DNA of 40,812 nt from Clostridia bacterium. Its GTDB lineage: Bacteria > Bacillota > Clostridia > Oscillospirales > CAG-272. Below, in pieces: positions 23,769 through 27,280 of the stretch. The first letter of the stretch is position 1. Each line of letters opens with the position of its first letter. The translations under genes and the position numbers were made by a program. A model generated the notes under the pieces. It was given only the letters and a program-made list of their open reading frames with translations. It made no database searches and was not told where the DNA came from. The stretch is from positions 1-40,812 of the forward strand of contig JAFTOI010000009.1 in the NCBI GenBank assembly GCA_017463865.1, in the 5' to 3' direction.

Positions 23769-24253
23769 GCCTCGCCCTCATCCCCGGCAGCTTCGACCCG
23801 CTGACCCTCGGCCACGTTGACCTCGTCGAGCGCACCGCGCGCCTCTTCGACCGCGTCGTTGTCGCCATCATGGTCAACGGCGCCAAGCATGAGTCGGGCG
23901 GCGGCACCTTTACCTTCGCCCAGCGCGAAGCCATCGCCGCCGCGTCGCTGGCCCACCTCGACAACGTCGAGGTCATCACCGACAGCGGCCTGCTCGTCGA
24001 GCTGGCACAGCGCATCGGCGCGACCTGCCTTGTCAAAGGCGTCCGCGGTGCCGGCGACTTCGACTACGAGTACACCCTCGCCCAGATCAACCGCCGACTG
24101 CCCCCCACCGTCGAGACCCTCTTCCTGCCCGCCGACTCGGCCTATGACCACATCAGCGCCACCCTCGCCCGCGAGATGCTGCGCTATGGACGCCCCCTCG
24201 ACGGTGTTTTGCACCCGGCGGGGATCAAGGTCGTGGAGGGGCTGCGGAAATGA
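23765..24253 (+). CDS. coaD: Phosphopantetheine adenylyltransferase CoaD
   Basis: Fourth enzyme of coenzyme A synthesis: ATP plus 4'-phosphopantetheine gives dephospho-CoA. 162 residues. The nucleotidyltransferase signature GSFDPLTLGH (8-17) is complete; the substrate loop KGVRGAGDFDYE (about 88-99) and HISATLAREMLRYG (about 136-149) are present, with Ala-Thr in place of the usual Ser-Ser of ISSSLVKE. It starts within the rsmD 3' end (ATGAGC..., 4-nt overlap) and itself overlaps the following nucleotidyltransferase gene by 4 nt, giving a tightly coupled operon. Confidence 0.95.
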   Translation: MSLALIPGSFDPLTLGHVDLVERTARLFDRVVVAIMVNGAKHESGGGTFTFAQREAIAAASLAHLDNVEVITDSGLLVELAQRIGATCLVKGVRGAGDFDYEYTLAQINRRLPPTVETLFLPADSAYDHISATLAREMLRYGRPLDGVLHPAGIKVVEGLRK

Positions 24254-25023
24254 TCGAGCCCCGCGCCGCCGCGCTCCTTGACTGCATTGTGCGCGATACG
24301 AAGGCCATCCTGGGGGATGGCCTTGTTGGTATTTACGTCCACGGTTCGCTGGCCTTCGGCTGCTTCAACTGGGCGAAAAGCGACATCGACTACCTGACCG
24401 TGGTCGAGCGCGAGCCGACCCAGGCGCAGAAGGAGGCGCTGATAGCTGCCATCCTCGCGCTCGACGATCGCTGCCCCGAGAAAGGCATCGAGATGAGCGT
24501 CGTTCTTGCCCGCGACTGCCGCGCCTTCACCTACCCGACGCCTTATGTGCTGCATTACTCGAACGATTATCGCGGCCGTTACCGCGCCGATCTTGCCGGC
24601 ACCTGTGCCGTCGTCCATGGTGTCGACCGCGACCTCGCGGCCCACTTCACCGTCACCCGCGCTGTCGGTATCCCGCTCTGCGGCGCGCCGATCGCCGACG
24701 TCTTCTCCCCGGTTCCTGCCGCAGATTATCTTGACAGTGTTCTGTTCGATATCGAGAGCGCTGAGCAGAATGTCGCGGATAACCCCATCTATGTGATCCT
24801 CAATCTCTGCCGTACACTGGCCTATCTGCAGGACGGCAAAATCCGCTCGAAGGCACAGGGCGGGGAATGGGGTATTGCCGCGCTGGCCGATGATGCCGGC
24901 CTTATCCGCGCTGCACTGGCCGCCTATCGCGGCGGTGCCGCCTTTCCGCCAATCGATGTGTCAAAACTGTCTGCCTTTGCCCGGCGGATGCTGATTCAGA
25001 TCAACTTGCTTTTGGAGAATTAA
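24250..25023 (+). CDS. Aminoglycoside nucleotidyltransferase-like protein (AadA/DUF4111 type)
   Basis: A 257-residue nucleotidyltransferase. The N-terminal motif GSLAFGCFNWAKSDIDYL (32-49) is the Gly-Ser ... Asp-x-Asp signature (Asp45, Asp47). The C-terminal part with NPIYVILNLCRTLAYLQDG and SKAQGGEWG matches the AadA (ANT(3'')/DUF4111) family. Known members adenylylate streptomycin and spectinomycin, but many chromosomal homologues have untested substrates, so resistance must not be assumed. It starts inside coaD (4-nt overlap) and is followed 2 nt later by a GNAT gene. Codon use matches the host, so there is no sign of recent gain. Confidence 0.82.
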   Translation: MIEPRAAALLDCIVRDTKAILGDGLVGIYVHGSLAFGCFNWAKSDIDYLTVVEREPTQAQKEALIAAILALDDRCPEKGIEMSVVLARDCRAFTYPTPYVLHYSNDYRGRYRADLAGTCAVVHGVDRDLAAHFTVTRAVGIPLCGAPIADVFSPVPAADYLDSVLFDIESAEQNVADNPIYVILNLCRTLAYLQDGKIRSKAQGGEWGIAALADDAGLIRAALAAYRGGAAFPPIDVSKLSAFARRMLIQINLLLEN

Positions 25024-25025
25024 CG

Positions 25026-25517
25026 ATGACCGATCCAGTCTTTCGTTTCGTTACCGCCGATGATCTTGACGCCTGCGTCGCCCTCATCCGTGACAGCTTT
25101 GCTACTGTAGCCAACGAGTTCGGCTTCACCCCCGAGAATGCACCCCGCTTCACCGCATTTGCCACCACCCGTGACCGCTTGGCCTGGCAGATGAAGGAGG
25201 GGCGCCCCATGTTCTGCGCTGAGGTTGATGGCCGTATTGTTGGCTACTACTCGCTCTGCGTTAAGCCTGACGAAGCCTGCGAGCTGAACAACCTCTGCGT
25301 CGCCCCCAACTGCCGCCATCAGCGCATCGGGGAAGCACTGCTTCATCACGCCTTCGCTGAAGCCGCCTCACGCGGCTGGCGCATCATGCACATCGGGATC
25401 GTGGAAGAAAATCAACGTCTCCGCCGCTGGTACGAGCGGTTTGGATTTGTGCATACGGGGACGCAGAAGTTCGATTTCTTCCCCTTCGCCTGCGGATACA
25501 TGCAGAAAGAGCTGTGA
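25026..25517 (+). CDS. GNAT-family N-acetyltransferase
   Basis: A 163-residue acetyl-CoA-dependent acetyltransferase. Motif A is clear: ELNNLCVAPNCRHQRIGEALLHHAFAEA split across about residues 83-112, with RHQRIG as the pyrophosphate-binding loop. The C-terminal strand WYERFGFVHTGTQKF is typical. The acceptor is unknown; position directly after an aminoglycoside-nucleotidyltransferase homologue hints at drug or small-amine modification, but this is only context. The start is 2 nt after the upstream stop, with GGAG within the upstream 3' end. Its native terminator was split by the element at 25548-27258. Confidence 0.88.
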   Translation: MTDPVFRFVTADDLDACVALIRDSFATVANEFGFTPENAPRFTAFATTRDRLAWQMKEGRPMFCAEVDGRIVGYYSLCVKPDEACELNNLCVAPNCRHQRIGEALLHHAFAEAASRGWRIMHIGIVEENQRLRRWYERFGFVHTGTQKFDFFPFACGYMQKEL

Positions 25518-25528
25518 TCTCTACCACA

Positions 25529-25547
25529 AAAAGCAGGCAGCCCGCGC
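25529..25547 (+). terminator. Left half of an intrinsic terminator split by insertion
   Basis: Bases 25529-25547 (AAAAGCAGGCAGCCCGCGC) joined to 27269-27279 (TGCCTGCTTTT) rebuild a perfect hairpin: 9-bp stem GCAGGCAGC/GCTGCCTGC, loop CCGC, flanked by AAAA and TTTT. The halves now lie 1.7 kb apart, with the insertion in the loop and 3' arm. Confidence 0.85.
25538..25547 (+). repeat. Target-site duplication, left copy
   Basis: CAGCCCGCGC (25538-25547) is repeated directly at 27259-27268, exactly outside the two terminal inverted repeats. Confidence 0.88.
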
Positions 25548-25585
25548 CAATGTCATTTAGATAAGGCTGTGTAAGTTTAGATAAG
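25548..25585 (+). repeat. Terminal inverted repeat, left
   Basis: A 38-bp repeat starting CAATGTCATT, matching the reverse complement of 27221-27258 at 37 of 38 positions (T/A difference at position 11). It contains TTTAGATAAG twice, 20 bp apart. Confidence 0.93.
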
Positions 25586-25601
25586 TCAACCACAATGAAT
25601 T

Positions 25602-25636
25602 CCCTCGGTTGTAATCACAATCGAGGGGTTCTTTTT
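25602..25636 (+). terminator. Terminator inside the left end of the element
   Basis: CCCTCGGTTGT (25602-25612) pairs with ACAATCGAGGG (25617-25627), one G-T pair, followed by GTTCTTTTT. It would stop read-through from the GNAT operon entering the element. Confidence 0.85.
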
Positions 25637-25723
25637 GAATGCGAGTTTTATAATATCGTTAAAAACTAAGCCGATAAACCTGAAACTCTCTCCGTGGGAG
25701 AGTTTCACTCGACAACGTGGATG

Positions 25724-25752
25724 TTGTGAGATTGATTCAGATATGTTATACT
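25724..25752 (+). promoter_or_regulatory. Probable promoter of the element-borne xre gene, with operator-like repeats
   Basis: TTGTGA (25724-25729), a 17-bp spacer and TATACT (25747-25752). The inverted repeat ACAAC-GTGGAT-GTTGT (25712-25727) overlaps the -35, and another hairpin AAACTCTC/GAGAGTTT lies at 25683-25705. Autoregulation is plausible. Confidence 0.6.
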
Positions 25753-25801
25753 ATATACGGAAGCAGAGCTCGGCTTACTATTTTGGAAGTGAGGCATCTC
25801 T

Positions 25802-26917
25802 ATGAATAATATCGGACAACGAATCAAGGAACTGCGGAAGAAGAACGATTTGACGCAGGAGGCTCTGGCAGATTTTCTCGGCATAACGTATAAGGCTGTC
25901 AGTAAGTGGGAGTGCGGCATGACAGTACCGGATATCTCGCTGATTATGCCGCTGACCCGAATTCTGCACGTGACAGCGGACGAACTGCTGGGCGGAAAAA
26001 CAGAAGAAGCAGATGCACGACGTGCTGAACTGGACGAACGATGCGATAATTATTGGAAATACGATCAGAAAGAAATGTATCAAATGGCAGATCAAGCGGT
26101 CAGGGAATATCCGGGAGATTATAAGTATCTGACATGGTTAGCAGGAATGGAATACTTCATGGCTTATGAGGATCAGTACAAAGAAGATCCTGCAAAACCT
26201 TATTCGCTGGAAATGATAGAGCGTTCCATCAGGCACAGCAATATGGTGATTGATGGATGCACAGATTCCCGACTCCGTGAAAAAGCAATCTGGAACGCCA
26301 TGATCTGTTGTCAATATTCTGAACAGTATGACGAAGCTTTAAAATATGCGGAAATGTTCCCTGAGAGAAAACCGATTACTCGTGATAAGGCAATGGAAGT
26401 CTGTCTGCGCGGTGAACAACTGACTACCCATCAACAGATGATCGCACATAGCGCACTGAATGATTTCTGTATGTCAATGCTGGAACTTTATCGTTTCAGA
26501 GTACAGAAAGGCTCTCATGTGATGGTTGCACTTGACACAGAAGAAGCAGTAATCAAAACCGTATTTCCTGACGGAAATTATCTGTCTTTTCACTGGCATC
26601 TGTCCTGTATATATGAAGCACGGGCACAGTTGGAAATACATGAGGGAGACTATAATAAAGCTACGGAATACCTGCGTATCATGCTCGACCACGGAAAACA
26701 GTATTCGGATTTAATTGAAAGTGAGAATCGGCGTTTTTCCTGCGGTATCTTTGACCGGATAATAGTAAACCCAACAAACTGCGGGCATTCTGTACAGGGT
26801 CTTAAGCTCAGTTCAGACGACAAACCGTTCTTTGATAAAGTAAAAGATGAGCTGTTGACGGAAAAAATTTACGCACCTCTCCGCGATCGTGAGGACTTCA
26901 AAGCCTTATTTGAATAA
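25802..26917 (+). CDS. Xre-family regulator with helical C-terminal region, element cargo
   Basis: A 371-residue regulator with the same plan as the protein at 7385: HTH_3 domain at about 5-60 (TQEALADFLGITYKAVSKWE, ending DELLGG), then about 300 residues of TPR-like helices with shared blocks such as LREKAIWNAMICCQYSEQYD followed by EALKYAEMF, and a late PDGNYLSFHW (PDGDYHYYAQ in the other). It is the only gene of the element. Codon use is much more AT-rich (AAA, GAA, TAT, ATA) than the neighbours, showing recent acquisition from another genome. GTGAGG lies about 8-13 nt before the ATG. Targets and ligand are unknown. Confidence 0.88.
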   Translation: MNNIGQRIKELRKKNDLTQEALADFLGITYKAVSKWECGMTVPDISLIMPLTRILHVTADELLGGKTEEADARRAELDERCDNYWKYDQKEMYQMADQAVREYPGDYKYLTWLAGMEYFMAYEDQYKEDPAKPYSLEMIERSIRHSNMVIDGCTDSRLREKAIWNAMICCQYSEQYDEALKYAEMFPERKPITRDKAMEVCLRGEQLTTHQQMIAHSALNDFCMSMLELYRFRVQKGSHVMVALDTEEAVIKTVFPDGNYLSFHWHLSCIYEARAQLEIHEGDYNKATEYLRIMLDHGKQYSDLIESENRRFSCGIFDRIIVNPTNCGHSVQGLKLSSDDKPFFDKVKDELLTEKIYAPLRDREDFKALFE

Positions 26918-27104
26918 TCGCAATACCACAGCGGTATCGCGATATCTAAACGTATTGTTCTCAATTCTATATTTCAAACTCTGTCAGAAATGATAAAACT
27001 TTTTATATTTTCAAAATGAGGAAAAATATAAGGGTATTATTTCTCACAAAAGTACGCTCTACAAGTAATGTTTTCAGAAAAATAAATTATTTTTGAATCA
27101 AAAA

Positions 27105-27160
27105 GGGAACATCCATGACACCGAAATTACTGCGGCGGCGAGGATGTTCCCGTCTTTTTT
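27105..27160 (+). terminator. Terminator-like hairpin near the right end of the element
   Basis: GGGAACATCC (27105-27114) pairs with GGATGTTCCC (27142-27151) around a 27-base loop, then GTCTTTTTT. The 26918-27220 stretch has no gene; it is AT-rich, with another weak hairpin at 26918-26941. Confidence 0.75.
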
Positions 27161-27220
27161 ATTGAAATGCTTAACTAAATAGTATTACACCGATAAGGGA
27201 AAAAGAATTATGCTTTTCGC

Positions 27221-27258
27221 CTTATCTAAACTTACACAGCCTTATCTTAATGACATTG
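27221..27258 (-). repeat. Terminal inverted repeat, right
   Basis: Reverse complement of the left 38-bp repeat with one mismatch; its outer end reads CAATGTCATT on the minus strand. Confidence 0.93.
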
Positions 27259-27268
27259 CAGCCCGCGC
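27259..27268 (+). repeat. Target-site duplication, right copy
   Basis: CAGCCCGCGC, identical to 25538-25547. Bases 27269-27279 complete the original terminator's 3' arm and T-run. Confidence 0.88.
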
Positions 27269-27280
27269 TGCCTGCTTTTG

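Follow-up and report, generated by a model that had tools for sequence, protein, structure and literature searches.

How does a low-GC segment that carries a regulator gene and no transposase gene come to lie inside a terminator of a Clostridia genome, and what kind of element is it? For the window (the whole stretch of 40,812 nucleotides that was analysed), sequence comparison points with high probability to a non-autonomous mobile insertion cassette, in which a regulator sits between ends recognised by an IS4-family DDE (YREK) transposase acting in trans. It is a cassette of the mobile insertion cassette (MIC) type with IS4-type ends, and it belongs to a scattered family that mostly carries regulators.

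Cassette boundaries and the interrupted terminator

The cassette proper spans positions 25548–27258 (1,711 bp), while the interval originally given, 25529–27279, takes in the split host terminator beside it. The terminal inverted repeats at 25548–25585 and 27221–27258 are 38 bp each and match at 37 of 38 positions, a direct 10-bp target duplication, CAGCCCGCGC, is present at 25538–25547 and 27259–27268, and GC is 0.409 within the cassette compared with 0.607 across the remaining window; recomputation thus confirmed the repeats, the duplication and the drop in GC that a sequence-only reading of this DNA had listed. All 12 exact inverted 16-mer pairs spaced 200–5000 bp in the window are explained by the 38-bp ends, and a 29-bp core of the end had no matches with three or fewer mismatches over 100 shuffles. 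A gene for a DDE/YREK transposase is absent from the cassette according to both the ORF list and the domain scan, and the longest ORF is the cargo gene. The features are, in order:

25529–25547, + strand: left part of the interrupted host terminator, comprising its A-run and 5' stem arm and including the duplication copy at 25538–25547; from the empty-site fold and the intact terminator at the orthologous place in genome G167
25548–25585, + strand: left terminal inverted repeat, 38 bp, with CAATG and then two TTTAGATAAG motifs 20 bp apart; from the sequence
25601–25628, + strand: inward-facing terminator-like hairpin immediately inside the left end; from folding and a terminator scan
25724–25752, + strand: weak candidate promoter of the cargo gene, TTGTGA-17-TATACT; from a promoter scan
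25802–26917, + strand: cargo gene for a 371-aa HTH_3 (XRE) regulator; from the ORF and Pfam
27100–27156, no strand assigned: hairpin flanked by an A-run and a T-run, candidate bidirectional terminator behind the cargo gene; from folding
27170–27179, − strand: a further TTTAGATAAG-like motif (the third), roughly 80 bp inwards of the right end; by eye
27221–27258, − strand: right terminal inverted repeat, 38 bp; from the sequence
27259–27279, + strand: duplication copy (27259–27268), with the 3' arm and T-run that complete the interrupted host terminator; from the empty-site fold

Once the cassette and one duplicate are removed, the site folds into 13 consecutive pairs at −22.8 kcal/mol, bearing out the claim that excision restores a native hairpin, of which the 9-bp stem described earlier is the G+C part. 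The genes on either side, both on the + strand and named from reading of the sequence, we take to be a GNAT acetyltransferase before the cassette and spoIVA after it. The spoIVA region is present in three of the five genomes of the genus, including the window's own. At the orthologous place, where the split arms lie in the window, G167 (79% identity there) has an uninterrupted terminator, GCAGGCAGCTTTGCTGCCTGCTTTTGTCAT, and G017 has a different, uninterrupted terminator-like hairpin. There was no DNA match to the GNAT gene between coaD and spoIVA in either relative, with the interval in G167 holding about 0.6 kb of other sequence. As the GNAT gene is unmatched in both relatives that hold the locus, the orthologous context is coaD–spoIVA; the uninterrupted terminator predicted for relatives was recovered, and the predicted coaD–GNAT–spoIVA context was not. 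The window region 24250–25517, covering nucleotidyltransferase-like and GNAT genes, has no DNA match in the loci of these two relatives (L113 and L114).

Distribution and cargo of the cassette family

A pattern search located the cassette ends in six of 295 family genomes, including the window's own, and a collection of genome contigs contained eight stretches with such ends, all from metagenome assemblies titled Clostridia or Oscillospiraceae and five of them named from deer, sheep or goat gut. A profile built from 17 ends, run with tighter filters at the cost of weak matches, hit 21 of 395 family genomes at E ≤ 0.01; matches of at least 25 bits occurred in 13 genomes from eight genera, including the window's own, and the remaining eight genomes reached at most 20.5 bits. 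Two of 394 genomes matched in an order-level search, the window's own and G701, the latter with short MITE-like units. One viral contig also carries a cassette (L018), the only one retrieved by looser end patterns in viral scans, and neither 50,697 phage records nor 72,556 plasmid records matched the whole window cassette.

The copies analysed comprise 13 complete cassettes (12 from genomes and L018) and 10 one-ended copies, many of which are cut by a contig end, and all but the viral copy come from draft genomes of 54–96% completeness. Weak end matches (L065, L068, L071 and L072–L074) were excluded from all cassette counts, and L056 was excluded as a duplicate of L055 (99.6% over 1943 bp). 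Cassettes range from 1.4 to 2.1 kb, and no transposase-length ORF besides the cargo is present in any of the 13 complete copies, in agreement with the proposal of a transposase-free mobile element. A transcription regulator is the cargo in 12 of these 13, so that the element is, as proposed, usually regulator-bearing: eight carry an XRE regulator (the window, L018, L019, L020, L021, L022, L057 and L066), three an ECF sigma factor with a long C-terminal part (L013, L063 and L067) and one an AraC regulator (L061), while L017 carries tandem GNAT genes. Copies with other cargo, anticipated from the window alone, therefore exist. L067, located in a genome (G080) of the window's genus, was assigned to ECF sigma through 84% protein identity to L063.

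Duplications of 9–10 bp flank 11 of the 13 complete copies when one mismatch is allowed, with 9 bp in four, and no recognisable duplication was found for L018 and L063. On its viral contig, L018 (2386–4027) lies between halves of two different terminators with no duplication, as if two copies had recombined. The inner motif is missing from one end of L066 (2559–2596), and a deletion from one TTTAGATAAG repeat to the other could account for this.

Relation of the ends to IS4-family elements

The window cassette end, CAATGTCATTTAGATA, matches the IS4-subgroup pattern -AATR--------WTW (Table 1 of PMC2266710) at every named position, and as the ends begin with CAATG they differ from the IS231 ends given in the same table (CAT-------AA--TAA). 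Duplication length is 10–13 bp for the IS4 subgroup and 8–10 bp for IS4Sa, compared with 10 bp for the window and 9 bp for four copies, and the loose end pattern of IS4Sa also fits. Autonomous elements with such ends were identified, including L102, whose left end equals the outer 18 bp of the window cassette's right end, and L150, on a viral contig, both ends of which are identical to the outer 19 bp of the window cassette's left end; other autonomous elements deviate at a few positions (e.g., L109, TAATGTCAATAAGATAAG). The transposases adjoining such ends have, by reading of the sequence, a YREK motif, the five that were tested all score above the NCBIfam IS4 cut-off, and relatives of one fragment occur in 14 of 395 family genomes. 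The expectation of an autonomous element with the same ends was thus met for the outer 18–19 bp, and the inner TTTAGATAAG repeat, and with it the doubled 38-bp end, is absent from all autonomous elements compared.

A helper was sought in the genomes that carry the cassette. None of 13 carrier genomes, two of them counted as at least 90% complete and clean, contained an IS4 transposase above the NCBIfam cut-off; below it, there were two fragments in G191 and a 17.8-bit match in G000 to an IS5-type gene. Repeated insertion sequences are often lost in metagenome assembly, and for this reason the absence of a helper from the carriers is weak evidence. A separate search with PF01609 in eight carrier entries, two of which (G295 and G296) seem to duplicate G030 and G039, gave a single match, in G000, which was read as an IS5-type transposase without cassette ends and rejected. 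In 11 more genomes, PF01609 matched in G088, G142 and G191, with a cassette-type end at L080 alone among the eight loci.

An unseen transposon family of another kind, similar to IS4 in the outer 18 bp alone, is improbable as the source of the 38-bp ends. Such a family would account for the lack of the inner repeat in the autonomous IS4 elements compared and of a cognate transposase in the 13 carriers, but the ends share their outer 19 bp with L150, the duplications are of similar length (9–11 bp in three autonomous elements) and the A-runs outside the junctions have the same geometry, as described below. The cassette family probably borrows an IS4-type transposase, which, supplied in trans, would recognise the cassette ends and move the cassette by a cut-and-paste mechanism.

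Insertion into terminators

An A-run with its end 12–18 nt beyond the junction is present in 22 of 26 cassette flanks, six of 10 one-ended copies and 14 of 18 flanks of autonomous elements (leaving out L153, L148, which is the same element as L147, L107, L089, and L091/L099, at the same place as L109), compared with 1075 of 20000 random positions. When G–T pairs were allowed, the empty site formed an A/T-flanked hairpin of at least nine pairs for nine of 13 cassettes versus 411 of 20000 random flank positions, with L057 and L066 passing this rule yet folding weakly (−3.2 and −6.7). With Watson–Crick pairs only, seven of 13 empty sites qualified versus 16 of 2432 intergenic positions; the six that fail are L013, L017, L018, L057, L063 and L066, although L063 still folds at −25.0. 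Among three autonomous elements, one passes the stricter rule (L147), while L150 folds at −19.3 and L109 only at −5.5. Terminators are therefore a preferred target, as had been suggested from the window, and the insertion point would be the loop region of a Rho-independent terminator, with the A-run some 12–18 nt outside the junction.

The same preference is seen in IS4 of Escherichia coli, for which 11 loci among the matches listed (40 of 2739 matching records) and the K-12 copy gave 12 loci (L156–L167) at eight distinct sites. Seven of the eight are terminator-like hairpins (−18.7 to −25.5 kcal/mol, duplications of 11–14 bp), a count that stands without a random control, and they are located after adhE, by typA, at zapB/rraA, by bamD, at nupC/pdeA, by ogrK and by glcA. 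The duplication spans the loop and inner stem of these hairpins, and the K-12 site folds at −12.7. IS4 was reportedly found long ago in the pheST attenuator, with a consensus of AAA-N20-TTT; neither the insertion nor the consensus was found among the literature matches listed. No paper stating terminator targeting for IS4 was found in the open-licence literature, including the available parts of PMC2266710, PMC9208149 and PMC7290912, the first of which remarks on the ‘spectacular apparent insertion specificity’ of some IS4-subgroup elements.

Given the A-run geometry shared by autonomous IS4-family elements and the terminator sites of E. coli IS4, the targeting of terminators is most likely a property of the transposase and not the mark of a new class; the suggestion that terminators as safe targets define one is not supported. 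An A-run, a palindrome and a T-run offer a simple rule for IS4-type insertion sites.

Comparison with known non-autonomous elements

Transposase-free cassettes between insertion sequence ends are already known as mobile insertion cassettes (PMC3913671), and the present family is for that reason not a new class. As in MIC231 of Bacillus cereus and the qnrD mic element, a passenger gene lies between inverted repeats with a target duplication and without a transposase, and the transposase of IS231A acts in trans to mobilise MIC231A1 (PMC3913671). Unlike MIC231, the cassettes have ends of the IS4-subgroup type, not the IS231 type (CAT...), and Clostridia hosts, and they differ from both MIC231 and the qnrD mic element in a cargo that is nearly always a transcription regulator, a doubled end motif and often an inward terminator. 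In a 2008 survey, the IS231 subgroup was the only part of the IS4 family in which passenger genes had been recorded up to then (PMC2266710). The cassettes share with IS4 the end pattern, a duplication of about one helix turn and insertion in terminators, while the window cassette differs in lacking a transposase and in having a second copy of the end motif further in. Prokaryotic MITEs are non-autonomous, have IS-like ends, are mobilised in trans and measure 50–500 bp (PMC10969869), whereas the cassettes, at 1.4–2.1 kb with a protein gene (371 codons in the 1,711 bp of the window), fall outside that description. Copies of ISPpu9 sit in extragenic REP palindromes (PMC8450116), a similar choice of site, but ISPpu9 is autonomous and its target is a repetitive palindrome and not a terminator. 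A literature search of open-licence papers found no prior description of recurrent regulator cargo, a doubled end motif or terminators inside cassette ends.

Cargo regulators and internal signals

The regulator cargo is the most interesting trait of the cassette. The earlier description of the window cargo as an Xre/helical-repeat regulator was right as to the HTH_3 (XRE) domain. Pfam gives no repeat domain in the C-terminal part; weak TPR matches are present in some relatives of cassette cargo proteins. PADLOC matched four scanned XRE cargo proteins in the N-terminal part only and gave no match for four other cargo proteins, and six peptide patterns of the window regulator had no match in viral contigs. 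A mosaic origin of the window regulator was looked for and was not supported.

The window regulator has homologs in 109 of 246 family genomes. In a capture test restricted to matches that received a locus, none of 29 close homologs (some cut by contig ends) lay between paired cassette-type ends, with one locus having a single decayed cassette-type end (L131) and another a 17-bp inverted pair without a duplication (L129). Since close homologs do not lie between pairs of ends, the regulators look, from these comparisons, like an ordinary gene family on which the cassettes drew more than once. For five pairings of related cargo genes, which are not fully independent of one another, dN/dS was 0.21, 0.19, 0.15, 0.18 and 0.11, which indicates that the cargo genes are kept functional; the distant pair L013–L063 gave 0.34 and the window–L018 pair was saturated. 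It is thus very improbable that the cassette is an internally deleted relative of IS4, a decayed insertion sequence or MITE, that picked up one regulator by chance and whose cargo is meaningless: the IS4-like ends and the short MITE-like units with the same outer ends in G088 (143 and 167 bp) and G701 (252–533 bp) would suit such an origin, but the presence of a regulator in 12 of 13 complete copies, the lack of another transposase-length ORF in all of them, the purifying selection on related cargo genes and the derivation of the cargo from different lineages and families all argue against it.

Promoter sites of the TTGTGA-17-TATACT type number six in the stretch compared with a mean of 4.2 in shuffles, and the candidate for the cargo gene is weak. 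Inward terminator-like hairpins lie within 140 nt of the end in 11 of 26 cassette ends versus 36 of 1500 control stretches, with loops of up to 9 nt counted and controls drawn from the flanks, coding DNA included. The hairpin at 27100–27156 is unlisted in the terminator scan, which allowed loops of 3–8 only. In many copies, one end combines by eye the terminal inverted repeat with an inward hairpin plus a third TTTAGATAAG-like motif; in several, the other end has the repeat and a different inward hairpin. The third motif accompanies XRE as well as ECF cargo and so likely serves transposition rather than a single regulator. In the window, the hairpin at 25601–25628 would halt transcripts coming from the GNAT gene; hairpins just inside the ends may replace the host terminator broken by insertion and may also shield the cargo gene from read-through.

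Signs of movement between genomes

Between L059 (G267) and L022 (G220), which come from different genera, 234 of 234 bp are identical while the flanks and target sites differ; mis-binning of a contig could alter the host assigned to L059 but would leave both target sites unchanged. The ECF sigma cassettes L063 and L067, also from two genera, share 81.6% identity over 1789 bp. That the segment is an immobile, hairpin-flanked gene inherited in place can scarcely be believed, given the uninterrupted orthologous terminator in the same genus and the copies at other loci in other genera, even though the window's own genome (67% complete) holds a single copy.

The cassette suggests a route by which single regulators could pass between bacterial genera, landing where damage is small. 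A wider proposal, that transposase-free transposons form a dispersed family normally loaded with regulators (XRE, ECF sigma and AraC), self-insulated by terminators and delivered into host terminators, a system that moves regulators between Clostridia genera without gene breakage and whose regulator may also control the helper transposase, is doubtful as a whole. Such cassettes are easily overlooked because they are without a transposase and, in most genomes examined, have few copies. There were 17 end matches in the single genome G088, where MITE-like units (e.g., L069 734–876 and L070 1699–1865) have the same outer ends. L023, L058, L060 and L062 are 84–93% identical to L019 over their best-aligned stretches, and a 192-bp MITE-like unit with ends CAATGTCATTAACTTAAG is nested within the one-ended cassette copy L054 (2285–2476).
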